Shown here: positions 48,685 to 64,000 of the stretch, one piece after another
Position numbering within the stretch: the first letter of the stretch is position 1
Layout of the letters: each line of letters opens with the position of its first letter
Assembly: GCF_023734135.1 (NCBI RefSeq)
Contig: NZ_AP025730.1
Coordinates: forward strand, 1,054,001-1,118,000
From: Sphaerotilus microaerophilus
Lineage (GTDB): Bacteria > Pseudomonadota > Gammaproteobacteria > Burkholderiales > Burkholderiaceae_C
Direction of reading: 5' to 3'
Length of the DNA: 64,000 nucleotides
The notes under the pieces: generated by a model
Database searches by the model: none
Told to the model about the DNA's origin: nothing
The model's input: the letters and a program-made list of their open reading frames with translations, nothing else
Position numbers and translations under genes: made by a program

Positions 48685-48704
48685 ACCGCACCGGGAGAAC
48701 CACC

Positions 48705-48734
48705 ATGCTGCTGATGATCGATAACTACGATTGA
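48705..48734 (+). pseudogene. trpG: trpG 5' fragment at the integration site
   Basis: ATG followed by eight codons gives MLLMIDNYD, the exact N-terminus of anthranilate synthase component II (normally continuing SFTYN), then TGA. The ribosome-binding site GGGAGA and spacing after trpE are those of an intact trpEG operon. The last codons GAT AAC TAC GAT use T endings, unlike the C-ending host style, suggesting that the recombination core brought them from the element. The rest of trpG is not in this window. Confidence 0.85.
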
Positions 48735-48887
48735 GGTCTACTGGCGTCTATCAACCTCCATGGAACAACTCTAAGTCTATGTTTTTAAAGGGTTGATCGT
48801 CCATCGAGCGATTCTGAAAGCTGGACAAATCCAGTGCTCATGTGTGTAATGGAGTGTGTAACGGGCCAAACTGGAGGCGTTATACAC

Positions 48888-50168
48888 ATGGCACTCACAG
48901 CACTCAATCTTCTCTCGGCGCGCAAAGTGGAAACGGCGCAGCCCAGGCCCAAGGTGTACCAACTCCGGGACGGAGGCAGCCTCTTTTTGCGCGTTCAGCC
49001 CAACGGCTCCAAGCTCTGGTGGTACCGCTACCGGCTGGGCGGCGCTGAACAGGTGTACTCAATCGGGGTGTACCCAAAGGTCACGCTGGAGGCAGCCCGT
49101 GCGGAACGGGACCGGGCAAAGGCGTTGGTCAAGAAGGGCCTCGACCCCATCGTGGAGAAAAAGGCGGCGATCGCCCTCCAGGCCGACACATACGAACGCA
49201 CGTTCGAGACCGTTGCTCGGGAGTGGATCGTCAGCAATGCTCACTGGAGCGAGTACTACACCAACCAGGTCACCAGCTACCTTGAGAAGGATGTTTTCCC
49301 CCGGATTGGCAAGTTGCCGATCAGCAGCATCAGGGCTCCACATCTGCGCCCCATCATCAAGGATGTGGCGGCTCGTGGCGCGAAGACTGTGGCGATCCTC
49401 ATCCGCCAGTGGTGTGGGCAAATCTTCAGTTATGCGGCTGCCCAAGGTCTCTGCGAATACGATCCTGCCTCCTTGCTCAAGGGACTGGTCAAGCGCCCTC
49501 AGGTCCGCCACAACCCTCCGTTGACATGGGCAGAGATCCCGGACTTTCTCAATCGTGTGGACAACGAAGGGGGTTACCAGACGACAGTCCTCGCCCTCAA
49601 GCTGATGGCTTTGACCTACGTGCGCACCGTAGAACTGCGCAAGGCCTCCTGGGAAGAGTTCGACCTGGACAACGCCATGTGGTCGATTCCGTCCGAGCGC
49701 ATGAAGATGCGACGCCCCCATCTGGTTCCCCTGTCACGGCAGGCGGTGGCCGCTCTTAGGGAACTACATGCTCTAACTGGCGGCGGCAAAGTATTGTTCC
49801 CGAGCTACAGAAAGCCGGGACAAGTGATGTCGGCAACGACGCTCAATCAAGCACTCAAGCGCATGGGTTATGGCGGACGGTTTTCGTCCCATGGCTTCCG
49901 CTCGACCGCAACGACGATCCTTGGACTGTTGGGATATCCGGAGAAGCGGGTCGATCTTCAACTCGCTCATTCCAAAAAGAGCAAGGACTCATCGCGCGCG
50001 CCCTACGATCACACGAAGTTTGTGGAGTCCCGCAAGGTAATCATGCAGGACTGGGCTGACATCCTTGACTCATTGCAGGCAGGGAAACCCGTTGAAGGGG
50101 TCACGAAGGCGTTTGGCCCCATGTCGAAGCGTAGAACGGCGCTGCTCCGTGTCACAGAGCGCGAGTGA
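48888..50168 (+). CDS. P4-type tyrosine recombinase (integrase)
   Basis: Integrase of 426 residues. The N-terminal DUF4102 arm-binding domain reads MALTALNLLSARKVETAQPRPKVYQLRDGGSLFLRVQPNGSKLWWYRYRLGG. The core-binding SAM-like domain spans about 100-190. Catalytic residues: Arg in TYVRTVELR (about 246), His-x-x-Arg in SSHGFRSTATT (about 337), His in LQLAHSKK, and Tyr in RAPYDHTKFVESR (about 374). GGAGGCG before the ATG at 48888 supports this start. Being next to the broken trpG, it is the likely enzyme that inserted the element. Confidence 0.92.
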   Translation: MALTALNLLSARKVETAQPRPKVYQLRDGGSLFLRVQPNGSKLWWYRYRLGGAEQVYSIGVYPKVTLEAARAERDRAKALVKKGLDPIVEKKAAIALQADTYERTFETVAREWIVSNAHWSEYYTNQVTSYLEKDVFPRIGKLPISSIRAPHLRPIIKDVAARGAKTVAILIRQWCGQIFSYAAAQGLCEYDPASLLKGLVKRPQVRHNPPLTWAEIPDFLNRVDNEGGYQTTVLALKLMALTYVRTVELRKASWEEFDLDNAMWSIPSERMKMRRPHLVPLSRQAVAALRELHALTGGGKVLFPSYRKPGQVMSATTLNQALKRMGYGGRFSSHGFRSTATTILGLLGYPEKRVDLQLAHSKKSKDSSRAPYDHTKFVESRKVIMQDWADILDSLQAGKPVEGVTKAFGPMSKRRTALLRVTERE

Positions 50169-50251
50169 TGTCTGCTGCTTGGCGAGTGGAATGCCTAATG
50201 CACGTGTAGCACCTTGAACTGAAGACGCAGAACGAGGACATTGGCACTCGA

Positions 50252-50911
50252 CTAGGTTGGAGCATTCTTGGCGACCTGCAGTGCTCTGCGCTCGAACCGC
50301 TCTGAAACAACGTCGGCTTGTCCGCAGGGCCGCTGCAGGTGGGTCACGATCTCGTAGGGTCCGTCAGACAGCGGCCGTGTGTGAATGCCCCATCCCTGCG
50401 CATGCTCAATGCGCGATTGCGCGGATACCCCGACGCCGTAGCCGGCAGCGACCCATAGCGCGATCATCTCGAAGGAAGAGACACGCTGAATGTTCTGTTG
50501 ACTCACCGCGGGAAGAGAAGGCAGCCGCTGATCCAGCAAAGGGCAATTCTCTGCAGGCCAGCGAAAGACGGAGTAGTCCAACAGTTCGGCGATCGTGAGC
50601 TTCGCCTGGTCAAGTAAGGGAAAGCGCAACGGCATGGCGACGGCCATGTTCTCGGTCCATAGAGGTTGGCTTTTCAGCGACGGATCGCTCGATCCTTCAA
50701 GCGTCATGCCCGCGTCGTAGCGGCCTTCCCGAAGTCCCGCAATCAAATCATCGGCTGTGACCTCATGAAACGAAATGGTGACTTCCGGCTCTTCCGCACG
50801 CTGCAACGCAAGCAATGCCGAAAGATGCGATGACGGTACGCCAGGCGCTATGGCAAGCCTGAAATTGGAAAAGGAAAACTGGCTGGTGGCGTCGTGCATG
50901 AGAGCCCCCAC
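50252..50911 (-). CDS. LysR-type effector domain without DNA-binding domain
   Basis: A 219-residue protein matching only the substrate-binding domain of LysR regulators: FRLAIAPGVPSSHLSALLALQRAEEPEVTISFHEVTADDLIAGLREGRYDAGMTLEG, then MIALWVAAGYGVGVSAQS. The winged HTH that should precede it is absent; the frame opens with GTG at 50911 (ATG at 50899 also possible). It is divergent from a small Xre regulator, so an effector domain and an HTH protein stand side by side. It may be a decayed regulator or a free ligand-binding partner. Confidence 0.75.
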   Translation of the reverse strand: MGALMHDATSQFSFSNFRLAIAPGVPSSHLSALLALQRAEEPEVTISFHEVTADDLIAGLREGRYDAGMTLEGSSDPSLKSQPLWTENMAVAMPLRFPLLDQAKLTIAELLDYSVFRWPAENCPLLDQRLPSLPAVSQQNIQRVSSFEMIALWVAAGYGVGVSAQSRIEHAQGWGIHTRPLSDGPYEIVTHLQRPCGQADVVSERFERRALQVAKNAPT

Positions 50912-51002
50912 AAAGCGATCGGATCAAAAAGGCGAGCCACCATGATAGCCAAAAGAGATATCTTTAACGTGGTTAAATTCGGTCGATTGATCGACGCTTC
51001 TG

Positions 51003-51299
51003 GTGATGCAGAAGCGCAGCGTTCAACCGGGCCGCCCCCCTGGCACAACCACCTATGAAGCCGAGCCGGCACTGGCCTTCGGCCAAGCGGTGCGTGCTGC
51101 CCGCTTGGCGCAGGGAGTCGCTCAGGATGAATTCGCGTCCATGGCTGGTATAGCTCGCTCGCATATGGGCAAGATCGAGCGTGGGGAGCACATGCCCACG
51201 CTCGCATTGATACTGAAAATCTCCGCTGCCCTCAGCATAAGTGCGGCAGAGCTGATGAGTGCAACGGAACGCAATCTTCGTGCCGATGCCCAATCTTAA
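51003..51299 (+). CDS. Xre-family transcriptional regulator
   Basis: A 98-residue protein with an HTH_3 domain: GQAVRAARLAQGVAQDEFASMAGIARSHMGKIERGEHMPTLALILKISAALSISAAELM. Start GTG at 51003 or ATG at 51006. The N-terminal ~25 residues are Pro/Arg-rich. Such small Xre proteins commonly control integrative elements. It is divergent from the truncated LysR gene with a 91-base promoter region and converges with the next LysR gene. Confidence 0.87.
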   Translation: MMQKRSVQPGRPPGTTTYEAEPALAFGQAVRAARLAQGVAQDEFASMAGIARSHMGKIERGEHMPTLALILKISAALSISAAELMSATERNLRADAQS

Positions 51300-51317
51300 G
51301 TGGTGCGGTCCGTTGCG

Positions 51318-52214
51318 TCAGTCGCTCGAAGGGTCCCGGAGGCGGTCGATAAATCGCACCAGCGAAGCCGATGAGTTGCTGCTTTCGAGTCGAAGCAGGT
51401 AGGTGGTGATCACGGCTGTATCCAGCGCCAATGGACGGATCACCACGTCCGGTCGCTGGCTGACCGGAATCTTGGTCGCCGTCATGAAGCCCACGCCGTA
51501 GCCGGCACCGACCAAGGTGAGCATCATGTCCAGCGAGGAAACCTCCTCAACGACATTCAGTTTGTGTTCCTGGGTCTGCAGGAGGCGCGCCAACTCGCGG
51601 CAGTAGCCTTCGCACACCTGGGGATCGCACAGGACAAGAGGATGCCCCCGGAGTTCATGGAGTGGAACCTCCTTGTGGACGAGCAGTGCGTGCCGGGCTG
51701 GCAAGGCGACCACCAGCGGGTCCTGCCAGATAGGTTCGGCGACGATGCCATCACCGACGTCGGCGGTATGAGCGAATCCGATGCAGAAGTCGCCCGAGCG
51801 CAGGCCGCGCAACTGCTCGGCCAAAGGCACTTCGGACATCCGTATCTCGATCTCGGGTTCTTCGGCACGGCAACGGGCTAGAAACGCCGACAGCCGGGGA
51901 TCGAGCGCGCCGTCGGATACGGCGATGCGCAGGCTGCCTCGCAAGCCCGCCGCGACAGCCTTGACGTTCTCGCGGGCCTGCTCCAGGACGGTGAATAGCC
52001 GGCGAGTGTCCTGCAGGAACACGGCACCCGCAGCGGTCAGTCGGGTGCCCCGGCGGTCCCGGTCGAAGAGCACAGCGCCTAACTCGTCCTCAAGCTCCTT
52101 GATGGCGCGGGACAGAGGAGGTTGCTCAATGTGAAGACGCTCAGCCGCCCGTGTGAAATGAAGCTCTTCGGCCAAAACGATAAAGCAACGCAGATGCCGC
52201 AGTTCCATGAGCAA
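51318..52214 (-). CDS. LysR-type transcriptional regulator
   Basis: Full LTTR of 298 residues. The N-terminal HTH reads MELRHLRCFIVLAEELHFTRAAERLHIEQPPLSRAIKELEDELGAVLFDRD. The effector domain has LRIAVSDGALDPRLSAFLARCRAEEPEIEIRMSEVPLAEQLRGLRSGDFCIGFAHTADVG. The target is unknown; no divergent metabolic gene is adjacent because an IS sits 85 bases upstream of its start, possibly separating it from its former target. Confidence 0.9.
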   Translation of the reverse strand: MLMELRHLRCFIVLAEELHFTRAAERLHIEQPPLSRAIKELEDELGAVLFDRDRRGTRLTAAGAVFLQDTRRLFTVLEQARENVKAVAAGLRGSLRIAVSDGALDPRLSAFLARCRAEEPEIEIRMSEVPLAEQLRGLRSGDFCIGFAHTADVGDGIVAEPIWQDPLVVALPARHALLVHKEVPLHELRGHPLVLCDPQVCEGYCRELARLLQTQEHKLNVVEEVSSLDMMLTLVGAGYGVGFMTATKIPVSQRPDVVIRPLALDTAVITTYLLRLESSNSSASLVRFIDRLRDPSSD

Positions 52215-52299
52215 TGTTCCTATACAGGCGCTGACGACCTCCTTCTGTTTGCTCCACGCTATGCGCGTTGAAAACCTCTTTTAAGCGATGTTTTTTCAT

Positions 52300-53457
52300 T
52301 AGGACTTACGCAAACGTTTAAATCAAACTAGATTATTTAATATATCGGCGCCGATTTCGTGGTATTTGTGATAATATATTCACCATGAAACCCACGAGCC
52401 GAGACTACTGCCAATTTCTGATATCCACACAAATCAACTACACGCAGACCTATTTTGCGGATCACCATCAGAGGTTTTCTCATGACGCCATAAATCGCTA
52501 CTTGCAGGCTGCCAATATCAGCCCGGCCGATGTCTGGAATCTGGCCCGACGAAACATCGAATTTGACGACGATGCCTGCCTGGTTTTCGATGACAGCGTT
52601 CTGGACAAGAACCACTCGCACAAAATCGAGCTGGTGCGCAAACAGTACAGCGGCAACGCCCACGGCCTGATCAAGGGCATTGGGGTGGTCAACTGCCTGT
52701 ACGTGAACATCAAGACCGGCCACTACTGGATCATCGACTGGCGCATCTATGCGCCTGACGAAGACGGCAAGTCCAAGCTGGATCATGTCCAGGAGATGTT
52801 CGACAATGCCATGGCGCACAAGAAGCTGCCCTTTCGCACCGTGCTGATGGACTCCTGGTACGCCACCATGGATCTGATGAAGCACATCCACCGGGCGGGC
52901 AAGCACTTCTACTGCCCGCTCAAGAGCAATCGCAAGGTTGACGACAGCCAAGGCCAGCAGCCCTACAAGGCGGTCAGTACGCTGCAGTGGAGTGCCCAAG
53001 AACATGTGCATGGCAAACACGTCAAACTGTTCAAGTTTCCCAGTGACATCAAGCTGAAACTGTTCCGGGTTGTGGTTGATACCAATCGCACGGACTGGGT
53101 TGTGACAAACGACCTATCTCAAGATTCGACGGACGATACGCATGAGATGTGTGCCGTGCGCTGGAAGATTGAGCAGTACCACAGGGAGATCAAGCAGGTT
53201 CTTGGCATCGAAAAATGTCAGTGCAGAATGGCCCGGTCACAGAAGAATCACATCGCCTGCGCGATATTGGCCTGGGTCCACCTCTGCGAGACGGCCAAAG
53301 CGCTGAAGACAAACATCTACAGCCTGAAGAAGGGAATCCTCTCGGAATTCCTCAAGAAGGAACTTCGGTCACCAACCATTCGCATGGCACCCATCTGACA
53401 TATTGAGTCGAAATGGCGAATCATTGCGCTAGCTGAAGTGACCCTGCGTAAGTCCTA
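52300..53457 (+). mobile_element. IS (IS4/IS701-like DDE group), copy 2
   Basis: Same 1158-base length, same 13-base terminal repeats (TAGGACTTACGCA) and an identical transposase product to the copy at 13797-14954. It is flanked by the 5-base duplication TTCAT (52295-52299 and 53458-53462). Identity and intact duplications point to recent transposition of one or both copies. Confidence 0.92.
52385..53398 (+). CDS. DDE transposase of IS copy 2
   Basis: Identical 337-residue product to the gene at 13882-14895, with the same DDE residues (FDDSVLDKN, VLMDSWYAT, IEQYHREIKQ). Intact. Confidence 0.9.
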   Translation: MKPTSRDYCQFLISTQINYTQTYFADHHQRFSHDAINRYLQAANISPADVWNLARRNIEFDDDACLVFDDSVLDKNHSHKIELVRKQYSGNAHGLIKGIGVVNCLYVNIKTGHYWIIDWRIYAPDEDGKSKLDHVQEMFDNAMAHKKLPFRTVLMDSWYATMDLMKHIHRAGKHFYCPLKSNRKVDDSQGQQPYKAVSTLQWSAQEHVHGKHVKLFKFPSDIKLKLFRVVVDTNRTDWVVTNDLSQDSTDDTHEMCAVRWKIEQYHREIKQVLGIEKCQCRMARSQKNHIACAILAWVHLCETAKALKTNIYSLKKGILSEFLKKELRSPTIRMAPI

Positions 53458-53558
53458 TTCATGTGTTCTTGAGCATGAGATGTAGGCGTTCAACTTTTCC
53501 AAACGAGAGATCGGGCTGTGTTTGACCGAGCATTCAAGAGCCCTGTTTATCTACGGCG

Positions 53559-55076
53559 CTAAGGGTCAATCTTTACAATGTCCCCAATGTCTTGTACGTA
53601 TGCAAGTGCATAGGCCATCTCTCCAGAGGTTTGCGTATGCAAAAACATCAATGGCTGTCCTCGTGTTATCTCGTCACCTAAGTGCACCTGCAATTGAATC
53701 CCTGCGGCTGGACTCTCAGGCGCACCGGCCAATTTGGCTAAACGAGAAAGCTTACGGTTGTCGATGTGTACTGCTCGGCCTGAAGTGGTTGCCAGAAGCG
53801 GTTCGACATAGAGAGCTTGGGGCGGCTCACGAAATCCCCCCTGTGCCGCGCAGATTCTCTGAAATTTTTCCCACGCGCGGCCACTGCTGATCGTCTCATG
53901 AGCCAACCGAAATCCCTCCCCTTCTTTGGCGACGCCGCCAAGCTCAAGCACCGCACCCGCCACCAACGCCACGCGGTCACATAGGTCTTGCGGCGCATCC
54001 GCCTCGTTGCGCAACACGGCCAACACGTCGCGCGCCTCCAACGCCGGGCCGATACCTCTTCCGACAGGTTGATTCCCGTCTGTAAACAGGCAACGCAATA
54101 CAAGGCCAAATGACGCGGCGACTTCTGAAAGGTGATGCGCAAGGTGCTCGGCAGTTTCCCGGCTGCGGACTTTTGCGGTTGGCCCAACCGGAATATCGAT
54201 CACGATGTGGGTCGCCCCTGCCGCAATCTTCTTGGATAACACCGAGGCAATCAGTTGTCCTTGGGTGTCAATATCCAGTTCACGCTCAATACGCACGAAG
54301 ATGTCGTCCGCAGGGCTCAGGTGCATCGCGCCGCCCCACGCCACGCATCCACCCTCTTTCTCCACGACCTTTCTGAGCGTATCCAGGTCCAGGTCTACAG
54401 GAGCCAGCGTTTCCATGGTGTCCGCCGTGCCAGCGGGAGAGGTGATGGCGCGTGATGAGGTCTTGGGCATCACCAATCCATTGGCTGCGGCGATGGCAAC
54501 CACCAACGGCGTGGTGCGATTTCCCGGTAATCCGCCCACACAATGCTTGTCCACAACAATCTGAGCCTGCCATTGCAGGCGATCTCCGACATCGACCATC
54601 GCACGGGTGAGATGGATGGTCTCTTGCATATCCAGAGGCAGTACCGCCGTTGCGGTCAGGAAGGCCGAAAGTGCGACATCGGTATAGCGACCATCGACCA
54701 CATCACGGACGATCGCCTGCAACTCCGTCGTTTGCAGTCGGTGGCCGTGAATTCGCGCACGCACGGCCGACAACGATTCGAGCATTGGCGGATGCCGAAC
54801 CTGCACAAAATCGCCCTCATGGATGTCCAGGGCATCCCAGGCGGCCTCGGACAGAGCGATCTGTCCGGCTTTGAGCAGATCGCTGTCGATTTGGTACAGC
54901 AGCGCTTGCACAGTTCGGTCGCCGGCGATGATCAGTACCTGTGACCGCGGTGCCAGCCCTTCGGCACGGCAGACATGGCAGTCGGTCCGCATCAAGACGA
55001 CGGGTTGATGCTGGGCATGCAGTCGCATGCGCAATGCTTGCAAGGCGGGTGTCTGGGGCGTGATGCGGGCACTCAC
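53559..55076 (-). CDS. AMP-phosphorylase-type nucleoside/nucleotide phosphorylase
   Basis: Protein of 505 residues in the thymidine phosphorylase superfamily. An extra N-terminal domain of ~85 residues and the motifs VDKHCVGGLPGNRTT and PKTSSRAITSPAGTADTMETL match the archaeal AMP phosphorylase / TIGR02645 branch rather than DeoA, whose motif reads KHSTGG. Archaeal enzymes convert an NMP plus phosphate to base plus ribose-1,5-bisphosphate. GTG at 55076 overlaps the upstream nuclease stop by 4 bases, fixing the start and giving the family length. It is the last gene of the minus-strand cluster. Confidence 0.85.
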   Translation of the reverse strand: MSARITPQTPALQALRMRLHAQHQPVVLMRTDCHVCRAEGLAPRSQVLIIAGDRTVQALLYQIDSDLLKAGQIALSEAAWDALDIHEGDFVQVRHPPMLESLSAVRARIHGHRLQTTELQAIVRDVVDGRYTDVALSAFLTATAVLPLDMQETIHLTRAMVDVGDRLQWQAQIVVDKHCVGGLPGNRTTPLVVAIAAANGLVMPKTSSRAITSPAGTADTMETLAPVDLDLDTLRKVVEKEGGCVAWGGAMHLSPADDIFVRIERELDIDTQGQLIASVLSKKIAAGATHIVIDIPVGPTAKVRSRETAEHLAHHLSEVAASFGLVLRCLFTDGNQPVGRGIGPALEARDVLAVLRNEADAPQDLCDRVALVAGAVLELGGVAKEGEGFRLAHETISSGRAWEKFQRICAAQGGFREPPQALYVEPLLATTSGRAVHIDNRKLSRLAKLAGAPESPAAGIQLQVHLGDEITRGQPLMFLHTQTSGEMAYALAYVQDIGDIVKIDP

Positions 55077-56431
55077 AGGGCGAACTCCTGGTTTTGCATG
55101 GGCACCGATGCGTGCCAATTGAGTTCGCGCTGGATACGTTCGCGCAGCGCCTCAGAGGCATCAGATTCACCGTGAACAATGAACACTCTTTCCGGCGCCT
55201 TGGTAAAGCCGCGCAGCCATCGCATCAGCTCATCGCTGTCGGCATGAGCCGACAACATCGCAAGCTCGGCGACCTCTGCCTTGATCGGCATCCAGCGTCC
55301 ATGGATCTTGACTTCGCGAGCGCCCTCAAGCAGCTTGCGCCCGCGCGTACCTGCTGCTTGGAATCCAGAGAACAGCAGCGTGTTCTGATGGCTACCGCCA
55401 AACGCTTCTATGTGATGCAGCACGCGGCCGCCGGTGGCCATGCCGCTGGCGGAAATAATCACCTTGGGGTATCGATTCGCCGATAGCGCCTTGGACTCTT
55501 CAACGTCGCGCACGTATGTGACTTCTGAGAATGCCGTCTCGAAATCGTGTTGAGCGAGCTTGTGGTCGTCGGCATGGCGGTGCAGCAGCGCAGTTGCGCT
55601 GGTGGCCATGGGACTGTCCAGATAGACGGGCACGTTGCGGAGCCGACCGCGCTGTCGCAACAGCCATAGGTCATAGATCAACGACTGCGCGCGTCCTACG
55701 GCAAAAGCGGGAATCACTACGGTGCCTCCGCGGCGAGTCGTACGCTCGATGATGTCGCCTAGCGCTTCGACGGCATCGGAACGGTCATGATGACGATTGC
55801 CATAGGTGGACTCGATGATGATGTAGTCCGCTTCCGTGACGGGTTCAGGATCAGGCATGACCGCATCGTCATAGCGGCCCAGGTCGCCGGAGAACACCAA
55901 ACGCTTGCCGCCGATGTCGATCTGCGCCGTCGCCGCTCCAAGAATGTGGCCGGCCCTGCGTAGAACCAGGCGTGCACCGCCCGGCAATACCGTCTCCTGA
56001 TGCAGTGGCACGGGCTTGAACTGCAAGAGCGTGCGTTCGGCATCTCGGACCCGATACAGGGCAAGGGCTGGCTTGTGCTTGGAAAATCCCTTCCGGTTGG
56101 CGAACTCGGCATCCTTCTCCTGCAACCAAGCACTGTCGAGCAGGATGAGTTCGGCGACGTCCCGTGTGGCTGGCGTCGAGAAAATCTTCCCGCGGAACCC
56201 GTTCAGCACCAATCGGGGGAGATATCCACAATGATCCAGGTGCGCGTGCGTCAGTACAACCGCATCGATGTCCTTGGACTCAACGACAAGATGCTGCCAG
56301 TTCAGCTCGCGCAGGTTCTTCAGTCCTTGGAAAAGTCCGCAGTCGATCAGGATGCGGGTACTGCCATATGTGATCAGGTGTTTGGAGCCGGTGACGGTAC
56401 CGGCACCGCCCAGGCTGGTCAGTGAGAGCAT
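55073..56431 (-). CDS. Beta-CASP metallo-beta-lactamase-fold RNase
   Basis: A 452-residue protein of the CPSF/Ysh1-like RNA-processing group. The zinc-binding HAHLDHCGYLPRL (about residue 61) follows GSKHLITYGSTRILIDCGLFQG. A phosphodiesterase GHILGAATAQI and SGDLGR lie mid-protein. The beta-CASP insert and ISASGMATGGRVLHHIEAF come next, then an RMMBL-type C-terminus with HADSDELMRWL. It probably cleaves RNA, exo- or endonucleolytically. Coupled to the phosphorylase by a 4-base overlap, which suggests that its nucleotide products are the phosphorylase substrate. A strong GAGGAGA ribosome-binding site precedes it. Confidence 0.9.
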   Translation of the reverse strand: MLSLTSLGGAGTVTGSKHLITYGSTRILIDCGLFQGLKNLRELNWQHLVVESKDIDAVVLTHAHLDHCGYLPRLVLNGFRGKIFSTPATRDVAELILLDSAWLQEKDAEFANRKGFSKHKPALALYRVRDAERTLLQFKPVPLHQETVLPGGARLVLRRAGHILGAATAQIDIGGKRLVFSGDLGRYDDAVMPDPEPVTEADYIIIESTYGNRHHDRSDAVEALGDIIERTTRRGGTVVIPAFAVGRAQSLIYDLWLLRQRGRLRNVPVYLDSPMATSATALLHRHADDHKLAQHDFETAFSEVTYVRDVEESKALSANRYPKVIISASGMATGGRVLHHIEAFGGSHQNTLLFSGFQAAGTRGRKLLEGAREVKIHGRWMPIKAEVAELAMLSAHADSDELMRWLRGFTKAPERVFIVHGESDASEALRERIQRELNWHASVPMQNQEFAL

Positions 56432-56514
56432 GAAGTTGTCTCCTCGCTTGTTGGTGGGTTGTGAAATCAGGAGCTGGCGCGGTCACTGCGGACCGTGTCA
56501 GAACCACTTGAAAT

Positions 56515-58845
56515 TCACGCGTCGGTCGCGGCAGCAGCAGCCTGCGAACTGTTCCAGCCGGTCACTTGCGCAGCGGCATAGATGGCATCCACCCAGGTGC
56601 ATCGATTGGCGATCAGCATTCCAGCCACATCGAGGGTGCCGCCGTGGTTGATGTAGCCCAAAGCCCGCGTCTTCGAAGGGCCGCTGTCAATGCGGCGAAG
56701 CACGCCCAGCATCGGCTCAGGGCGGGTATGGCTTATCAACACGCGCGGCAGGTGAGGCGGGAAGAGCGCTTGCAGGGATTCGTCACCGAGCACGAAGGCG
56801 GCCTCAAGTTCGTCTCGCGGAATGCGTAGACGGCCGGGCTCGACCACCACGGTGATGCACGACGCAAGCCCATGGTGCTCCAGGCGGGCATGGGCTTTGA
56901 GCGCTTCCTCCAACTGGTAGGCGCCAATCGCTACGAATTGCAGTTGTGCGGTGGACGGATCGCCGGCTACATGGGCTGCTCCATGCTCGATCAGCGATTG
57001 AGCCGCGGCGGCACTGAAGTGATTCGGCGTGTCGCGCTTGGAGACCACCACACAAGCCACTTGGCCGCGGCTGGCGTAGACCGCTCGCAACGCGGCGCAC
57101 GCCGTGTTTTCATCCACCGGGAACAACACGCGTGCGGTGTCCGACATTTCCCCTAGCAATGCTTCGCCAATGGTCGGGTCCTGGTGTGACTGCTCGTTCT
57201 TGCTGTTCTCCCAGGTGTGGGATGTGACGACCAGCGGGATGGAGATCCAGCCTGGCGGCTGGCCCAGTTCCTTCTGTCGGCGCGCGAAGATGATCTCCTG
57301 GCGAATCAATCCAAGCATCTTGACCGCGAAGGCCTCGTAGCTGACGATCAGGTTCAGCCCCCCTTTGTTGGCGAGGGCGGCGGCCGCAACGGCTTCTTCA
57401 TTGAGTGCGGTGATCACCGAGCCATGCGTCGATTCCGGGACGCCGGGTTCGGGCACGTTGACGCGGTGCTTGAGCAGTGCCAGTGTGGCTCCCATCTTGT
57501 TGCTGGCCAGTTCATCGGGATTGCCGATCCGGACGCGCAACTGTGGATTTGCCTGCGCCAGTTTCACGAACCAACGATCCAGTGAAGACATGGCGCTGCC
57601 CGATACCTCAGTTGGCGCCCAGGCCGGCATCGGCAGATGAGGGCTCGCTGGATGGCGTAGGGCCATGGGGTGCTCGCTTTCGCGCGAGCGCTGGCTCTGG
57701 CCGTGATTCGCAAGGACGGTGAGCGCGTTTTCCAGTTCGCTCTCGGGCACGAACAGCGCCGCAGCCCCTGCGTTGAAGGCCTCGCGTGCCTGCGCATCCT
57801 CGCGCGGATTGCCGTTCAGCGGCAGGTTGTGGGCGGCATTGGTCGCCGCGCCCGGGAAGCCAAAACCTTTCTCCGTCTCGGCGATCACGTAGGGCAGCTT
57901 GACCGGATAGCGCCGATCCGAGCGTGCGGCGAAGGCGCTCAGCGTGTCTTCGGCTTCAACAATGGCCCATGCGATCGCCATCGGATCACGTCCATCAACG
58001 ATGACCGGATCGAAGCCGTTGTGGCGCAGGTCCTCGGCCAGCCAGGTAGCGCCACCTTCCTGCACGATCTGGGTGCGCTGCTCGATGCGCCGTCCGTTGA
58101 GAATCATGACCGGGATGGCGAAGCCGCAGTCCTCGGCGCGCCACCAGCGCGGCGCCCAGTCCGAGCCACGTTGTTCCTCGAAAGCGCCATCACTGAGGAA
58201 TGCCACCAGGCTTTCTCCCGGCAACGGCGTGTGCACATACTGCAGCCCGGCGAACCCCAGATAGCCGCCTTCGGAGATCGCGCCGGCCGTGTTCGGCCCG
58301 GCATGGCTACCCAGCGGTACCGCGGGCCGACCCTGCTTATCGATGGCATAGGAGTAGAAGTCCCCGATCAAACGCGACAGGCCCGCCTCGCTGCGGTCGT
58401 AGCGTCCACGCTGGGCGGCGGATACATCGCCGGTCAGTGCGTTCACCGCCTCGATCGCGGCCACGCAGTGCCCCTGCCCCATGAGCCAGCCGCGTGTCGT
58501 CCCGGTCAGCGCGTTGGCCAACAGATAACCCACGAAGGCTGGCACCATGTTGAGCGAGCCGCCGGTGTGGCCTTCGGGCGTTTGTTTGAAATCATCGGAG
58601 CCCAGTGGGCAGCCGCTTCGGTCGATGCGCCGGGCATAGGTCATATGCGCCACTACGCTCATGGCCGTGCAGGCCACCCGGTCGGCTGCAGCCAGCAGCG
58701 CATGGGCCGAGGCTTCGTCTGCTATACGCCTTTGCGCGACCAGACGTTGCACTAGGGCCTGCATACGTTCGATGGTTTCAGACCTGTGCGCGATGGGCCC
58801 GTAACCAGCACGCCAATCGGTTGCGAGGTTAGCTTGAGAGGACAT
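56515..58845 (-). CDS. Divergent phosphoketolase-family protein
   Basis: ThDP enzyme of 776 residues, the family size. The C-terminal half is well conserved (NPDELASNKMGATLALLKHR, VVTSHTWENSKNEQSHQDP). The N-terminal half departs from standard Xfp as I recall it: the HWGTTPG motif is replaced by PEGHTGGSLN, GPGHGG by GQGHCV, and the DGEAETGPLATxWH block by SDGAFEEQRGSDWAPRWW. LNGYKI becomes LNGRRI. Standard Xfp splits xylulose-5-phosphate or fructose-6-phosphate to acetyl phosphate; this one may use another sugar phosphate. GGAGACC precedes the ATG. It lies between PRPP synthetase and the RNase gene. Confidence 0.85.
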   Translation of the reverse strand: MSSQANLATDWRAGYGPIAHRSETIERMQALVQRLVAQRRIADEASAHALLAAADRVACTAMSVVAHMTYARRIDRSGCPLGSDDFKQTPEGHTGGSLNMVPAFVGYLLANALTGTTRGWLMGQGHCVAAIEAVNALTGDVSAAQRGRYDRSEAGLSRLIGDFYSYAIDKQGRPAVPLGSHAGPNTAGAISEGGYLGFAGLQYVHTPLPGESLVAFLSDGAFEEQRGSDWAPRWWRAEDCGFAIPVMILNGRRIEQRTQIVQEGGATWLAEDLRHNGFDPVIVDGRDPMAIAWAIVEAEDTLSAFAARSDRRYPVKLPYVIAETEKGFGFPGAATNAAHNLPLNGNPREDAQAREAFNAGAAALFVPESELENALTVLANHGQSQRSRESEHPMALRHPASPHLPMPAWAPTEVSGSAMSSLDRWFVKLAQANPQLRVRIGNPDELASNKMGATLALLKHRVNVPEPGVPESTHGSVITALNEEAVAAAALANKGGLNLIVSYEAFAVKMLGLIRQEIIFARRQKELGQPPGWISIPLVVTSHTWENSKNEQSHQDPTIGEALLGEMSDTARVLFPVDENTACAALRAVYASRGQVACVVVSKRDTPNHFSAAAAQSLIEHGAAHVAGDPSTAQLQFVAIGAYQLEEALKAHARLEHHGLASCITVVVEPGRLRIPRDELEAAFVLGDESLQALFPPHLPRVLISHTRPEPMLGVLRRIDSGPSKTRALGYINHGGTLDVAGMLIANRCTWVDAIYAAAQVTGWNSSQAAAAATDA

Positions 58846-58883
58846 TTCAGGTCTCCTTGAAAATAGTTGGATCGATAAAAAGA

Positions 58884-59780
58884 TCAGCCTCGCGGATCGG
58901 TTTTCCCGCTAGAGAGAGCGTCGGCAATCAGCGAAGCGAGACCAATCCGGTTGCTCGGATGCGGTACTGCGTCGGTGGACGTAATTCGGGCAAACAACGG
59001 TGTCAATTGGGCCCAGGCATCCTCGGCGAACAGGGCATGCACCACTACGCACTCCGGCTTGCGCATTCCTTGCTCGGCGAGCTTGCGCGCCGCGACGGCG
59101 AGCGTGCGGCCTGATGATGCGATGTCGTCCACAAGCACCGGCGTTCTGCCGCGCCAGATCGACAGGTCGGGAACATCGATGTCCACGCTGCGATCGCCAT
59201 GGCGTGTCTTGCGAAGCACAGCGTGCGGTACGCCGATGCGGGACGCGATGGCGCCGGCCCACTGCTCGCTTTCCTCGTCGGGGCCCACGATCAAAGGTTC
59301 TTCGACATGATTCGCGATCCAGTCGGCCAGCAGTGGTGCGGCATGCAAGGTGATGGTGGGGATCGTGTAGACCGCTGATAGTGTCGGATAGCGGTGCAGA
59401 TGCGGATCCACCGTGAGCAGCTTGTCGAAGGTCGATGAGACCAGACGTGCGAAGGACCGCGACGTCACGCTTTCTCCGTCATGGAATCGCTTGTCCTGGC
59501 GCATGTAGGCCAGATACGGTGCGATCAGGTTCACCTCTTGCGCGCCAAGTTCGCGCGCCGCGTCAGCGGCAAAAGCCAGAAGCAGGAACTGCGGATCAGG
59601 ATGGGCCAGCGTGCAAATCACATCCACGATCCGATCGGCAGGTTCGCCATGCAACCGGACATAGCTCTCGCCATCGGGGAATCGGCGCGTTTCGATGCGG
59701 CCGGCTTCGCTGCCGCATGCCTGCGCGATGCCGCGGGCCAGATCTTCATTGCCGGGTAGGGCCAAGGTGAGTCGTTGCAT
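58884..59780 (-). CDS. Ribose-phosphate pyrophosphokinase (PRPP synthetase) homologue
   Basis: A 298-residue PRPP-synthetase family protein. FPDGESYVRL, APYLAYMRQDKRFHDGESVTS and VDPHLHRYPTLS correspond to the ATP and metal sites, and VLVDDIASSGRTLAVAARKL is the PRPP-binding loop. It is shorter than the housekeeping Prs (~315) and differs at VDPHLHR, where standard enzymes have VDLHADQ. A housekeeping prs should exist elsewhere, so this is a pathway-specific paralogue acting on ribose-5-phosphate, PRPP or a related bisphosphate. AAGGAG precedes the ATG. Confidence 0.88.
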   Translation of the reverse strand: MQRLTLALPGNEDLARGIAQACGSEAGRIETRRFPDGESYVRLHGEPADRIVDVICTLAHPDPQFLLLAFAADAARELGAQEVNLIAPYLAYMRQDKRFHDGESVTSRSFARLVSSTFDKLLTVDPHLHRYPTLSAVYTIPTITLHAAPLLADWIANHVEEPLIVGPDEESEQWAGAIASRIGVPHAVLRKTRHGDRSVDIDVPDLSIWRGRTPVLVDDIASSGRTLAVAARKLAEQGMRKPECVVVHALFAEDAWAQLTPLFARITSTDAVPHPSNRIGLASLIADALSSGKTDPRG

Positions 59781-59983
59781 CCATTTATCTCCTTATTTGT
59801 TGTCCTTGGTCTCTTATCGAGCGCGGGTGCCTTATCGTTCAGCTCGCTGTGTTCACCTTGCCAACTGGCTAATGACGACGGCATTGGCAGTACTGCGTCG
59901 ACGTGGTAGCTCCACAAGCAACCAGGCTCTTGTCATGAACAGCAACAGAGTGGCTTGCATGGCGTTCAAGGAATCGATCTGCA
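59781..59983. other. Intergenic space between PRPP synthetase and LpxR-like genes
   Basis: About 200 bases without a credible gene. The gap is longer than elsewhere in the cluster, so an internal promoter for the last four genes may lie here. Confidence 0.45.
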
Positions 59984-61057
59984 TCAGAATCGCCGTCCTA
60001 CGGTGATCGTTCCGTAGACCGGGATTTCCTTTTGTCCACGAAATTCGCGGGTGCGGTGGTAGCGGGCTATCGCGATGCGCCAGTTGCCCTGAGTCATCGC
60101 GATGCCATAGCCCACATCAGCCACGAATGGCCGTTTATCAACACTATGACTGGACTTGAACGTATTGCCGTCCAACGTGATGTCGTGCAAAACCCAGCGA
60201 CCGTCGAGTGCCACGAACAGGTGCCCGTTCCAGTTGCTGCCAGCGGTCTTACGCACGGGCGAGGTGTTTTCTCCAGCCGGGCGCAGCGGTGCGGTGCCTA
60301 AGTCGTCCGGCAGGCGTAGGCCATAGCGCAGTTCTCCGCCGACATTCGCGTAGGTGGCGAAATTGCCCAAGCTGCCGCCCCAGTGGCGGGTCAGATCCCA
60401 ACCCCAACCGCTGACGTTTTCTTGCCTGATGACTCGTGTTCGGCGTTCGTGGAGCAACTGCAGCACGGGTTCGTCGCGCAGTTGATGTCTCCAGCCATTG
60501 AATCTGTCCACTCCGACGGTGTCATGCCACCAGTTCTGGACTTGCCTGGCCTGGGAGGAGGGCCCCACCACCCCCACGCGGAGTTGCGAAGTGCGCAGCG
60601 TATCGCCCCGCCTCGCGTTATAGCCAAGGCTCAACATCAAGGCGCCCGCGAAAGGACGATCATCCTTGATGAGATCGCTGCGCGTTTTGTCGTTCGGGGT
60701 GTACATCATCTGCCCGAAGCCGATGGTCATGTTCTGTTCGTCAAAACCCTCGGGTTGCAGCACCGTGAGAAAACGATTCAGCCCACGGACGAGACGGGGT
60801 AGGCAAGGGTCATCGCGATAGTCCACAAGGTTGGGGGAGACCCAGCTGACGAGAAACCCGTTGGAGTACCCTTGGTCTTGTCCAATGCCGCCGAACATGT
60901 CGTTGTCGATCCGCAGATTGAGCGTTCCCGTTGAGCGCAGCGGGTTGTCCTGGTGGCAGGACTGGGCCTGTGCGGAGGCGCTCAGCAATAGCAGCAGCAA
61001 GGGGGCTGCGACTTTCAGCCTCCATTCAGTTTGGTCGGTGGACTGAACCTTCGTCAC
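59984..61057 (-). CDS. LpxR-like outer-membrane lipid A deacylase family protein (DUF2219)
   Basis: A 357-residue outer-membrane beta-barrel candidate. The signal peptide is LKVAAPLLLLLLSASAQA. The family signature LNLRIDNDMFGGIGQDQGYSNGFLVSWVSP contains the Asn/Asp-rich calcium/active-site start of LpxR. DRPFAGALMLSLGYNAR and the C-terminal VPVYGTITVGRRF (terminal Phe) fit the barrel. LpxR removes the 3'-acyloxyacyl chain of lipid A. GTG at 61057 overlaps the UspA stop by 4 bases. Its presence in a metabolic cluster is unexplained, except perhaps as envelope stress adaptation. Confidence 0.82.
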   Translation of the reverse strand: MTKVQSTDQTEWRLKVAAPLLLLLLSASAQAQSCHQDNPLRSTGTLNLRIDNDMFGGIGQDQGYSNGFLVSWVSPNLVDYRDDPCLPRLVRGLNRFLTVLQPEGFDEQNMTIGFGQMMYTPNDKTRSDLIKDDRPFAGALMLSLGYNARRGDTLRTSQLRVGVVGPSSQARQVQNWWHDTVGVDRFNGWRHQLRDEPVLQLLHERRTRVIRQENVSGWGWDLTRHWGGSLGNFATYANVGGELRYGLRLPDDLGTAPLRPAGENTSPVRKTAGSNWNGHLFVALDGRWVLHDITLDGNTFKSSHSVDKRPFVADVGYGIAMTQGNWRIAIARYHRTREFRGQKEIPVYGTITVGRRF

Positions 61058-61548
61058 GCTGGCGTGCCACCCTGCCCAGGGGTTGCAGTCGCAATGACCG
61101 ATTGGGGCTGGCGCACCAGCATCACCGGAACTGGTGCGATGCGAGCGAGCTGCTCTGCATCGCTTCCCATCAGCAGCCTGTCCACGCCCCGGCGTCCGTG
61201 GGTACCCAACACCACCAACTCGCATTGAGTAGTCAGTGCCTGCTGAGCGATGAGCACCGAGACGCGCTCGCCGTTACTTTCCAGAAGGACGGTCTCAACC
61301 ACCAGGCCTCCCTGCCTCAGCCGCAGCGCCGCCTCGTCCAGCAGCTTCTGCCCGGCCGCCAGGAAGCCCGGCCTCACTTCTTCAATATAGATCCTCGGCC
61401 TCTCGAAGCCGTTGCTGTGCTTCATCTCCTCGATGACGTGCAGCAAGACGATGGTTGCGCCATTCAGGCGTGCCAGCACCGCAGCGTGGTGGAGCGCTAA
61501 ATCGGCAGTAGGACTTCCGTCGAGCGGAACCAGGATTCTTGAGTACAT
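61054..61548 (-). CDS. Universal stress protein UspA family
   Basis: A 164-residue Usp domain: MYSRILVPLDGSPTADLALHHAAVLARLNGATIVLLHV at the N-terminus and the ATP-binding VLGTHGRRGVDRLLMGSDAEQLARIAPVPVMLV (G-x2-G-x9-G-S) at the C-terminus. This is the nucleotide-binding subtype. GGAGAC precedes the ATG. Usp genes beside PHA synthase are common in low-oxygen or starvation regulons of betaproteobacteria, which suggests the same type of control here. Confidence 0.93.
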   Translation of the reverse strand: MYSRILVPLDGSPTADLALHHAAVLARLNGATIVLLHVIEEMKHSNGFERPRIYIEEVRPGFLAAGQKLLDEAALRLRQGGLVVETVLLESNGERVSVLIAQQALTTQCELVVLGTHGRRGVDRLLMGSDAEQLARIAPVPVMLVRQPQSVIATATPGQGGTPA

Positions 61549-61591
61549 GAATGTCTCCAGTTATCAGAGTAAAACGGGGTGACGAACAGAT

Positions 61592-61613
61592 ATTGCGTAT
61601 ACCGTGTCGCAAT
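61592..61613. promoter_or_regulatory. Inverted repeat upstream of the UspA gene
   Basis: ATTGCG (61592-61597) and CGCAAT (61608-61613) are perfect complements around a 10-base centre, 44 to 65 bases before the UspA start and between phaC and usp. A regulator site is possible; it does not match the FNR consensus. Confidence 0.3.
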
Positions 61614-61635
61614 AGCGGACGCGGTATGCGCTTAT

Positions 61636-63387
61636 TCAGTTGCGTACATATTCCCCTGGGGCGTCGCAAACAGTGGGGTATCCACTGGATTCAGCACCTA
61701 TGAGCGGAGGCGCAACAACATCACCGGAACGCTCTCGCAGCCACGCCGACCATGCGGGCCACCAGGAATCCGGATGCGTCTGCATCGTCGCTTGCCACTC
61801 ATCCGGCGCCATGTATCCATCACCGGCCGCGCGGGTATGGATTTGATATTGGCGCTTACCTCGGCCGGGCTCGCTCACGATGCCGCCGTTGTGTCCTCCA
61901 GTGGTCAGCACGAAAGTCAGCTCGGCCGAAGACAGGAGATGCAGCTTGTAAACCGAGCGCCAAGGCGCAATATGATCCGAGGCAGTGCCGACGCAAAACA
62001 CCGGCACAGCGATGTCTCCCACTGAAACGGGGCGACCCGTGACGGGATAACGCCCCGCGCTGAGATCGTTATTCAGGTAAAGGCGTCGGAGATACTGCGA
62101 ATGCATCTTCGCGGGCAGGCGAGTCCCATCGGCATTCCAAGCCATCAGGTCGGTCATTGGCCGGCGATCGCCCAATAGGTATTCGTCAATCATGCGAGAC
62201 CATATGAGATCGTAGGAGCGCAGTAGCTGAAAAGCTCCGCTCATCTGGTCGGAGGTCAAATAACCGGTTTGAGCCATGCTGGCTTCCAACAGCGCCACTT
62301 GACTCTCGTTGATGAAAAGACTCAGCTCGCCCGGTTCGCTGAAGTCCGTCTGTGCGGCAAGCAGGCTTACCGACACCAGCCGCGTATCGCCATCACGCGC
62401 CATGGCTGAAGCACCAATGGCCAGTAGCGTTCCGCCCAGGCAATAACCAGCCGCGTGGACTCCATGCCCGGGGACAACGGAAGTCACAGCGTCCAGCGCT
62501 GCATGCAGGCCGAACTCCAGGTACTCATCCATGCCCAAATCTCGATCCTCAGCATCCGGATTTCTCCAGGAGATGCAAAAAACCGTATGCCCTTGCGCAA
62601 CCAGATACCGTATCAGCGAGTTATGCGGTGACAGATCCAGTACGTAGTACTTCATGATCCAGGCAGGAATGATCATGATCGGTTCGGGATGGACTTTCTC
62701 GGTAGTGGGCGTGTACTGAATCAGTTCGATCAGTCGATTTCTCAGAACGACTTTTCCTTCCGTGACCGCTACGTCGCGCCCAACGACGAAGTTCTCCGTT
62801 CCCGCGGGAGGCTGGCCGGATAGTTGCCGACGCAAGTCGTCGAGAAAGTTGGACGTCCCCCGCGCTAGATTGGCGCCTTGCTCTGCGATGGTTCTTTTCA
62901 GGACAACGGGGTTGAAAACCGCAGCGTTGGCGGGCGAAAGCATTTCCAGCCACTGTTTGGCGCCAAACGCCAGCAGGCGTTGGTGTTTCGGATCCACTCC
63001 CCACACCCCCTGCGTGGCCTGCTCCCACCATTTGGTCTGATTGACGAATGAACTGCGGAAAAGGTCGTAGGGCCATTGATCCCATGCAGGATCGTTGAAG
63101 CGGCGGTCATTGACAGGTGACCGGTCAGGAGCGGTGGCTCCCCGGTTCGGGTTGGCCCGATTCTTCTTCAATACGGCCATCCATTGCTCGGACAGGGAGG
63201 CTGCAAACGCCAAAAGCTCGGCTTGCTTGCCAGGACTGTTTGCTAAATGGCTCGCCCAGTCCACCCACGCGAGCAACGATGTCTCCGGCGAAATAGACGA
63301 CCAAGCCTGTGCCCAAGCGACATGGGCATCCCCATCCAACTTCGGATTGATGGCTGAGTCGATATTGCCGTTCTTTTTATTCGTCAA
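61636..63387 (-). CDS. phaC: Poly(3-hydroxyalkanoate) synthase, class I-like
   Basis: Polymerises 3-hydroxyacyl-CoA to PHA on storage granules. The length of 583 is class I-like. The N-terminal PhaC domain has FNDPAWDQWPYDLFRSSFVNQTKWWEQATQG; the catalytic Cys is in AAGYCLGGTLLA (about residue 315); Asp in GTASDHIAPWRSVY and His in TTGGHNGGIVSEPG complete the triad. TTG at 63387 is the start: it has GAGG 9 bases before and begins MTNKKNGNIDS. It is a second-type PHA synthase, since no phaA, phaB or phaP lies beside it. Confidence 0.92.
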   Translation of the reverse strand: MTNKKNGNIDSAINPKLDGDAHVAWAQAWSSISPETSLLAWVDWASHLANSPGKQAELLAFAASLSEQWMAVLKKNRANPNRGATAPDRSPVNDRRFNDPAWDQWPYDLFRSSFVNQTKWWEQATQGVWGVDPKHQRLLAFGAKQWLEMLSPANAAVFNPVVLKRTIAEQGANLARGTSNFLDDLRRQLSGQPPAGTENFVVGRDVAVTEGKVVLRNRLIELIQYTPTTEKVHPEPIMIIPAWIMKYYVLDLSPHNSLIRYLVAQGHTVFCISWRNPDAEDRDLGMDEYLEFGLHAALDAVTSVVPGHGVHAAGYCLGGTLLAIGASAMARDGDTRLVSVSLLAAQTDFSEPGELSLFINESQVALLEASMAQTGYLTSDQMSGAFQLLRSYDLIWSRMIDEYLLGDRRPMTDLMAWNADGTRLPAKMHSQYLRRLYLNNDLSAGRYPVTGRPVSVGDIAVPVFCVGTASDHIAPWRSVYKLHLLSSAELTFVLTTGGHNGGIVSEPGRGKRQYQIHTRAAGDGYMAPDEWQATMQTHPDSWWPAWSAWLRERSGDVVAPPLIGAESSGYPTVCDAPGEYVRN

Positions 63388-63530
63388 AGCGTATTACCTC
63401 TATTTCTGCACAAGTAGAAAGAGCCCCTTGCTTGAAAACGGGAGTCGATTGCGATTTCCTGGGCGACGACGCCTCGCCAGCGCGTCAGCGATGTATCCAT
63501 CTGCCAGCTCGCTCCGCTGTTTCGCTTCGC

Positions 63531-63998
63531 CTAACCGGCCATCAGGCTGATTACCAGTGCGTTCGCAATATCGATGACGAACCCACATACCAGGGGCACC
63601 ACAATGAACGCCTCGCGTGCCGCACCATGCTCCCGAGTCACCGCCGTCATGTTGGCGATGGCAGTGGCGGTAGATCCCAGCGCAATACCGCCGAAACCCG
63701 CGCACACCACGGCGGCTTGGTAATCCTTGCCCATTGCCCGAAAAACAATCAGCAAAACGAATGCGATGACCAGGGCAATCTGCACCAGCATCGCCGCCGT
63801 GATGAAGGCAAGCACGGGCTGCAGCTCCCAGAGCCTGAGTCCCATCAGCGCCATGGTCAGAAACAGGCCCAGTGAGATATCGGAGACCAGGGCAATGCCT
63901 GGCTGCATGCTCGGCCAGTTCCATAGACGTCCGCCCCCACTCGGCCTCATCCAGTCGGCCACCATGCGCAGGAGAATCCCGGCCAGCAGGCAGCCCAC
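63531..63998 (-). CDS. gltS: Sodium/glutamate symporter, C-terminal part
   Basis: The gene enters from beyond the right edge, and only the last 155 residues are visible. DISLGLFLTMALMGLRLWELQPVLAFI, MGKDYQAAVVCAGFGGIALGSTATAIANMTAVTREHGAAREAFIVVPLVCGFVIDIANALVI match the C-terminal half of GltS, with several membrane helices. It imports glutamate with Na+. The gap to phaC is about 140 bases. Confidence 0.85.
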   Translation of the reverse strand: MGCLLAGILLRMVADWMRPSGGGRLWNWPSMQPGIALVSDISLGLFLTMALMGLRLWELQPVLAFITAAMLVQIALVIAFVLLIVFRAMGKDYQAAVVCAGFGGIALGSTATAIANMTAVTREHGAAREAFIVVPLVCGFVIDIANALVISLMAG

Positions 63999-64000
63999 AA

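Follow-up and report, generated by a model that had tools for sequence, protein, structure and literature searches.

Here we describe a gene cluster in a stretch of 64,000 nucleotides from Sphaerotilus microaerophilus (C1:1054001-1118000, where contig C1 is NZ_AP025730.1 of a 6.06-Mb, two-contig genome), hereafter the window. On balance, and by a modest measure, we favour the view that this is a horizontally acquired cluster for survival at low oxygen. It would ferment the ribose of RNA by way of ribose-1,5-bisphosphate (R15P), ribose-5-phosphate (R5P) and acetyl phosphate. The gene set, its order, the retained catalytic residues and the recurrence of the cluster are read directly from the DNA; from these we infer the reaction steps.

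Seven named genes, all on the minus strand, lie between positions 53559 and 63387. They were identified from open reading frame (ORF) calls and from matches to Pfam and NCBIfam profiles, used with curated cut-offs. A preliminary description had given the same genes, order and strand, and this is confirmed; all seven match their named families in Pfam or NCBIfam. Four of them carry the argument. These encode a paralogue of Prs, the 5-phosphoribosyl 1-pyrophosphate (PRPP) synthetase (58884..59780; NF005537, 437 bits, cut-off 322), a divergent phosphoketolase (56515..58845; PF03894, 141 bits; PF09364, 42 bits), a β-CASP metallo-RNase with an RMMBL domain (55073..56431) and an enzyme of the nucleoside monophosphate (NMP) or AMP phosphorylase type (53559..55076; 505 amino acids from a GTG start). 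The genes are separated by 38 bp (Prs-like to phosphoketolase-like), 83 bp (phosphoketolase-like to RNase) and −4 bp (RNase to phosphorylase), and this spacing is thus like that of one operon. The 4-base overlap, also reported previously, is real if the phosphorylase starts with the GTG at 55076. This is most likely the start codon; the RNase stop codon TGA and the GTG share the letters GTGA, and AGGAG lies upstream of the GTG.

In the proposed scheme, the RNase would cut RNA to nucleotides. The phosphorylase would then use phosphate to split NMPs into a base and R15P. Next, the Prs paralogue would shift the C1 phosphate to AMP (R15P + AMP ↔ R5P + ADP). This would amount to the PRPP synthase reaction run backwards with one phosphate instead of two, and adenylate kinase would convert 2 ADP to ATP and AMP. 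Housekeeping isomerase and epimerase activities, assumed to be present, would turn R5P into xylulose-5-phosphate. The proposed phosphoketolase reaction is the irreversible splitting of xylulose-5-phosphate (or fructose-6-phosphate) with phosphate, to give acetyl phosphate and, from xylulose-5-phosphate, glyceraldehyde-3-phosphate. With its large drop in free energy, this step would draw the unfavourable earlier ones forward. Finally, acetate kinase (AckA) would yield ATP and acetate, or phosphate acetyltransferase (Pta) would yield acetyl-CoA. Thiolase, PhaB and PhaC would turn acetyl-CoA into polyhydroxybutyrate (PHB), both a carbon store and an electron sink.

The phosphorylase scores 672 bits with NF003338 (cut-off 434) and 577 bits with TIGR02645 (cut-off 434.6). 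Residues 41-492 align with the Thermococcus kodakarensis enzyme 4ga5. With the models for the nucleoside phosphorylases DeoA and Pdp, the scores fell below the cut-offs of TIGR02643 (161.8 versus 570.7 bits) and TIGR02644 (204.2 versus 409 bits). The RNase carries metallo-β-lactamase (MBL), β-CASP and RMMBL domains (PF00753, PF10996 and PF07521) and its nearest solved relative is RNase TTHA0252 (E 9.4e-72). The metal-site motifs are present in 21 of 21 aligned rows, the last His and one Gly being found in 20 of 21 with one gap apiece. We also considered, and rejected, the Cas14 protein of type VII CRISPR systems (NF045584, 395 bits versus a cut-off of 800); the 395-bit score indicates that type VII Cas14 is close to cellular β-CASP RNases.

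The Prs paralogue, annotated in public records as a ribose-phosphate pyrophosphokinase, retains the adenine-site, catalytic-His, flexible-loop and most R5P-loop residues of Prs. Among 43 paralogues from sampled genomes, R94, Q95, D96, H127 and K191 are invariant, and R193, D218, D219 and T226 are found in 42, with one gap. Position 225 of the R5P-loop is variable (R225 here; Gly in canonical Prs). The loop after the catalytic Asp, which we take to bind pyrophosphate, reads D-x-G-G/A in canonical Prs and D-x-E-S/A in the paralogue. Hence Glu170, two residues after the catalytic Asp, replaces the canonical Gly, and does so in all 43 paralogues. In a larger set, 65 of 67 rows have the Glu; the exceptions are the canonical Prs of this genome and a Prs homologue (in L138) several kb from a phosphorylase gene. 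Conversely, Gly occupies this position in all five printed alignments to solved Prs proteins and in 28 of 30 control rows, of which up to three look like wrongly chosen ORFs (R94 and Q95 are also missing). The equivalent Asp of E. coli Prs, D170, holds Mg and R5P (PMC9232217; this and the other papers cited by PMC number were used in part). From the loop Glu we infer that one phosphate, not two, is handled at C1, and that the paralogue would convert R15P and AMP to R5P and ADP. It seems, therefore, to fill the place of an R15P isomerase.

These residues also bear on a different reading, in which the paralogue acts as a conventional PRPP synthase, or catalyses PRPP + AMP → R5P + ATP, and forms with the phosphorylase a loop for nucleobase and nucleotide salvage and not for catabolism. 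Retention of the checked ATP- and R5P-binding residues, other than variable position 225, fits such a role, as does the fact that the nearest solved relatives are PRPP synthases. However, a canonical prs gene is already present in the genome, apart from the cluster, and Glu-(Ser/Ala) replaces Gly-Gly beside the catalytic Asp. Salvage would also leave unexplained why a PRPP synthase should regularly be paired with an R15P-forming phosphorylase. We thus consider the salvage loop unlikely. Fermentation of RNA ribose can itself be put in a more specific form, which we offer as a tentative possibility. The paralogue would be a new enzyme, an R15P:AMP phosphotransferase, in which the loop Glu replaces the second phosphate of PRPP. 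Together with the NMP phosphorylase and the RNase, it would form a widespread bacterial RNA-to-R5P module that saves the energy of the glycosidic bond. Here, with phosphoketolase, AckA/Pta and the PHB genes, the module would make rRNA an anaerobic fuel.

For the phosphoketolase, we aligned the window protein with 58 deduplicated sequences out of 98, giving 59 rows; residue numbers follow Bifidobacterium Xfp, in part provisionally. The Xfp residues, listed in PMC10547157, were mapped by eye from the alignment with 3ahc. Equivalents of H64, H97, H142, S440, E479, Y501, N549, H553 and K605 are present in all 59 rows, and that of H320 in 58. The Asp and Asn equivalents that serve the cofactor are also kept in 59 of 59. 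Thus, the catalytic His/Glu/Tyr/Lys set and cofactor residues are held in common with canonical Xfp (3ahc, 9cd3). The window protein passes the Pfam cut-offs for XFP and XFP_N. It falls below the curated NCBIfam phosphoketolase cut-offs (at best 133.7 bits versus 962), and the best match to a solved Xfp (3ahc, 9cd3) is only 74 bits.

The preliminary description had named the lack of an R15P isomerase and of PTA/ACK genes as the weak link of the scheme. The latter part is rejected, since both genes are on the same strand just past the window edge; they appeared absent because the window ends before them. The adjoining stretch (L003, C1:1117001-1137000), whose overlap with the window was verified, continues the run, upstream of the cluster and on its strand, with gltS, ackA, a short-chain dehydrogenase gene, a MaoC-Pta fusion, a DUF3141 gene, phaB and a phasin gene. 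The acetate kinase matches PF00871 (337 bits), the MaoC-Pta fusion NF006045 (699 bits), the acetoacetyl-CoA reductase PhaB TIGR01829 (351 bits) and the phasin its family with 31 bits (cut-off 24.9); the DUF3141 protein scores 969 bits. The short-chain dehydrogenase gene sits between ackA and the fusion. Ten thiolase-family matches above cut-off, found elsewhere in the genome, are candidates for the PhaA step to PHB. The isomerase part of the earlier statement stands. TIGR00511 had no match in this genome, while as a control it matched in 9 of 14 genomes. A search of the genome for PhnN gave none above the cut-off, the one match scoring 56 bits versus 156.

We examined recurrence in two sets of genomes. 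The first was anchored on the phosphorylase, not on the cluster, and sampled 398 genomes of the phylum, including our own. The phosphorylase occurs in 45 of these (33 of 213 genera), and 41 encode the Prs paralogue (NF005537). Both are found in 40 genomes, the phosphorylase only in five, the paralogue only in one and neither in 352 (Fisher p = 3e-48, ignoring relatedness among the genomes). At 42 of 49 phosphorylase places, the paralogue lies on the same strand within 5.5 kb; the RNase is within 3 kb, also on the same strand, at 20 places. With our own genome excluded, the figures are 40 of 47 for the paralogue, 19 of 47 for the RNase and 4 of 47 for phosphoketolase. Of the seven places without Prs, one is truncated where its contig stops (G586) and another is a second copy (G653). 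The other five (G599, G605, G657, G731 and G741) have 59-92% query coverage and 38-56% identity. Across 42 loci, the pairwise distances of the phosphorylase go in step with those of Prs (r = 0.87), as expected for co-inherited genes. Clustering of neighbours at 21 loci also recovered a cation P-type ATPase, an ABC transporter and a flavin-reductase/hydrolase fusion, named from Pfam; the ORF calls used there missed some core genes, and core counts are those of the 49 places. A second pair of phosphorylase and Prs paralogue genes is encoded in the same genome (C1:502521-503969 and 504280-505173; L187), and four of the 11 further genomes sampled from the family also carry pairs of this kind.

The second set was anchored on the phosphoketolase. 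It comprised 80 loci kept from 288 relatives, is skewed to close relatives and includes near-duplicates. In 42 of the 80, the order Prs, phosphoketolase, RNase, phosphorylase is found on one strand, with Prs upstream and the other two downstream. In 18, all three partners are absent. AckA is encoded within 9 kb on the same strand in 41 of 80. Sufficient flanking sequence on either side was available for 74 loci; of these, 40 encode Prs, RNase and phosphorylase, and 19 encode AckA with neither Prs nor phosphorylase. Phosphoketolase and acetate kinase often travel together. The idea that the families co-occur elsewhere thus stood for the phosphorylase and Prs paralogue above all, for the RNase and, at five of the 49 places, for phosphoketolase; UspA, LpxR and PhaC fell outside the conserved core.

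The block is also found further afield. In the alphaproteobacteria Rhizobium rosettiformans, Paracoccus and Novosphingobium, the four genes are annotated together on plasmids. Genes for the arginine deiminase pathway and adenylate kinase lie a few genes from the block on the R. rosettiformans plasmid (L006:3521-7317). In Sphingopyxis, the phosphorylase and Prs genes overlap by 4 bases, and acetate kinase and a Pta fusion are encoded in the region. The Cupriavidus KK10 record carries no annotation at the place concerned. Criblamydia (Chlamydiota) has a row encoding phosphoketolase, glgP, an ATP-cone protein, RNase, phosphorylase, Prs and acetate kinase; Pontibacter (Bacteroidota) has an ATP-cone protein, RNase, phosphorylase and Prs. 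In both, Prs exceeds the NF005537 cut-off and has the loop Glu. The ATP-cone protein (L190:2287-3129 and L191:1972-2817), encoded just upstream of RNase-phosphorylase-Prs, weakly resembles Mrr/PDDEXK nucleases, and a nuclease that senses ATP would be in keeping with a switch for energy starvation.

Published data for Bradyrhizobium diazoefficiens point to low-oxygen control. We equated its proteins with those of the cluster by annotated names and order. The equation is supported by B. septentrionale, where the same trio falls within the NF005537 and NF003338 families. At 0.5% O2, the MBL protein bll3115 was up (protein log2 2.9; transcript 15.4-fold), as were the ribose-phosphate pyrophosphokinase bll3116 (protein log2 4.4; transcript 7.7-fold), the thymidine phosphorylase family protein bll3117 (protein log2 2.1; transcript 5.1-fold) and the phosphoketolase bll2518 (protein 4.3; transcript 8.2) (PMC6515984). 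Deletion of fixK2 lowered bll3115 30.6-fold, bll3117 6.6-fold, bll2518 10.0-fold and the acetate kinase bll2517 10.2-fold (PMC9104804, Table 2). The genes form predicted operons bll3117-bll3116-bll3115 and bll2518-bll2517, with one predicted FixK2 box each (PMC9104804). Purine ribose has been discussed as an energy source in micro-oxia (PMC3759415). Among the 80 relatives, 17 strict FNR boxes were found versus 1.6 expected from Markov shuffles. They lie in 14 loci, 10 of them alphaproteobacterial and two with near-identical layout, and are not confined to promoters. The preliminary proposal that such a cluster could recycle RNA into acetyl units and polyhydroxyalkanoate (PHA) is borne out in part. 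It gains from the neighbourhood in three phyla, the AckA, Pta and PHB genes, the catalytic residues and the co-regulation in Bradyrhizobium; it loses UspA, LpxR and PhaC from its core.

Co-regulation might also be the whole story, with genes switched on together in a low-oxygen stress island that holds no single linear pathway. In the run considered here, UspA, GltS, LpxR and PHB genes are found together, and annotated universal stress genes are near the module on alphaproteobacterial plasmids. The lxa locus of Burkholderia cenocepacia likewise mixes universal stress proteins (USPs), phbB, Pta and an MBL protein (PMC6127331). However, the pairing of phosphorylase and Prs paralogue is far tighter than a loose stress regulon needs, and the core in Criblamydia and Pontibacter has no annotated USP or PHB gene (annotation there is incomplete). 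We judge a mere stress island to be quite unlikely. It is very improbable that the module runs in the synthetic direction, the paralogue making R15P from R5P and ADP or ATP and the phosphorylase joining it to bases more cheaply than PRPP salvage; phosphorolysis is reversible, as is generally known, such a route would suit energy-poor cells and R15P is described as a hub that links nucleosides, NMPs and central carbon metabolism (PMC9700705), but a neighbourhood of RNase, phosphoketolase, AckA and Pta speaks for breakdown.

Several observations weigh against fermentation of RNA ribose by the cluster. The conversion of R15P and AMP to R5P and ADP is uphill by a rough estimate. The phosphorylase scores 482 bits with the AMP_phos equivalog model TIGR03327, below the cut-off of 535, so its substrate is uncertain. 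In the phosphoketolase, and in contrast to canonical Xfp, Lys stands at the position of His548 in all 59 rows, Gln321 is changed to Asn in 56 and to Gly in three, and Arg442 is variable, being Arg in only eight; hence, the substrate may differ. Of the 49 phosphorylase places, only five include the phosphoketolase in the block and four include all partners. Thus, most pairs must rely on a phosphoketolase encoded elsewhere or on another use of R5P. Given an unrecognised isomerase, an archaeal-type route would also be possible with the RuBisCO encoded in this genome.

The evidence for oxygen control has counterpoints of its own. In the B. diazoefficiens data used, bll3115-bll3117 and bll2518 are not marked as direct FixK2 targets, nor as changed in soybean bacteroids (PMC6515984), and the part of the PMC9104804 table used does not list bll3116 separately. 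No strict FNR-type box was found near the cluster in the window, the best candidate matching 9 of 10 positions and lying inside the RNase gene. Strict boxes were likewise not found in L010-L024.

As judged from its composition and distribution, the cluster is mobile and horizontally acquired. The fraction of G or C at third codon positions is 0.63-0.79 in the cluster versus 0.93-0.96 in core genes, the reference being seven hand-picked core genes. Of 15 loci compared by blastn, 13 show a nucleotide identity of about 87-99% to stretches lying within 53458-69123; their contigs include those of Thauera, Achromobacter, Brachymonas, Variovorax, Zoogloea and Stutzerimonas. For L021 and L023, identity is only 74-81%. 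In four of the 15 (L010, L011, L016 and L053), the match begins at 48701-48705, just 3' of trpE, and identity is 99.7-99.9% up to 52299. The island edge would thus be at about 48701. The island covers 48701-64000 and runs on to about C1:1122347, with relatives in several beta- and gammaproteobacteria. A phage-type integrase gene (48834..50168, plus strand; PF00589, 64 bits; PF22022, 92.7; PF13356, 85.4) belongs to it, and an integrase gene also adjoins trpE in L010, L015, L016 and L053. No exact direct repeat of at least 14 bases flanking the island was confirmed when 48301-49000 was compared with the remainder of the stretch.

Downstream of the cluster, an IS701-family transposase is encoded at 52385..53398 on the plus strand (NF049921, 392 bits, cut-off 250). 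Matches of L010, L011, L015, L016 and L053 end at 52299 and restart at 53458, and this copy looks like a later, secondary insertion. The same ORF occurs three times in about 65 kb (13882-14895, 52385-53398 and L003:15976-16989), with equal length and an identical N-terminus. Between the integrase and IS701 are a gene for a LysR-type regulator (50252-50911) and an ORF with the LysR substrate-binding domain only (51318-52214). Both could belong to the control of the island.

The remaining genes of the run, all on the minus strand, encode an LpxR-like outer-membrane protein of the lipid A deacylase family (59984..61225; PF09982, 353 bits), the universal stress protein UspA (61054..61548; PF00582, 105 bits), the PHA synthase PhaC (61636..63387; PF07167, 187 bits; class I model TIGR01838, 518 bits, below the cut-off of 622) and the sodium/glutamate symporter GltS (63531..64000, truncated by the window edge). 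As called, the LpxR ORF overlaps usp by 172 bases and its predicted start is provisional. LpxR, which lies outside the conserved core, is probably a passenger. More broadly, LpxR, GltS and UspA seem either to be carried along or to be stress genes under shared control.

The nearest known kinds appear to be the archaeal NMP shunt, or pentose bisphosphate pathway, and the lxa locus. In T. kodakarensis, an enzyme of the same wider phosphorylase family makes R15P from NMPs (PMC9700705, PMC8376864). By analogy, the Prs paralogue and phosphoketolase would stand where archaea have isomerase and RuBisCO. In contrast to the archaeal shunt, no R15P isomerase was found here with TIGR00511 and the phosphorylase has the Prs paralogue and phosphoketolase beside it. 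A RuBisCO large-subunit gene is present far from the cluster (C1:5613672-5614565; L223). Its best model is NF010002 (895 bits, cut-off 489), which we take to be the form II model; with the type III model TIGR03326 it scores 229 bits, below the cut-off of 497. The archaeal route here thus lacks both its isomerase and its usual RuBisCO.

By description, the lxa locus has USPs, acetoacetyl-CoA reductase, phosphate acetyl/butyryl transferase and a 51-kDa MBL-superfamily protein in common with the cluster; low-oxygen persistence would be a further shared trait. The main text of the lxa paper does not contain the words phosphoketolase, phosphorylase or ribose (PMC6127331). The B. diazoefficiens genes share annotated enzymes with the cluster, and their low-oxygen induction and FixK2 dependence would be further points in common; they form two separate operons, and no pathway proposal was found in the parts of the two reports used (PMC6515984, PMC9104804). 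The Prs paralogue shares its fold family, by sequence, and its checked catalytic residues with PRPP synthases of classes I and III and the bacterial classes of a preprint (PMC13252144). It differs in the loop behind the catalytic Asp, where Gly-Gly is changed to Glu-(Ser/Ala), and in having an NMP phosphorylase-type gene as partner. The main text of the preprint lacks the word phosphorylase. In the open-access literature, as far as covered, a pathway of this kind was not found proposed for such bacteria; subscription papers were outside the scope.

About one in nine genomes in the sample from the phylum (45 of 398) has the phosphorylase and 40 of the 45 also have the Prs paralogue. If the proposal is true, these bacteria would have a counterpart of the archaeal pentose bisphosphate pathway, and a misannotated enzyme family would gain a function. 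Respiring bacteria could then live off their own RNA without oxygen.

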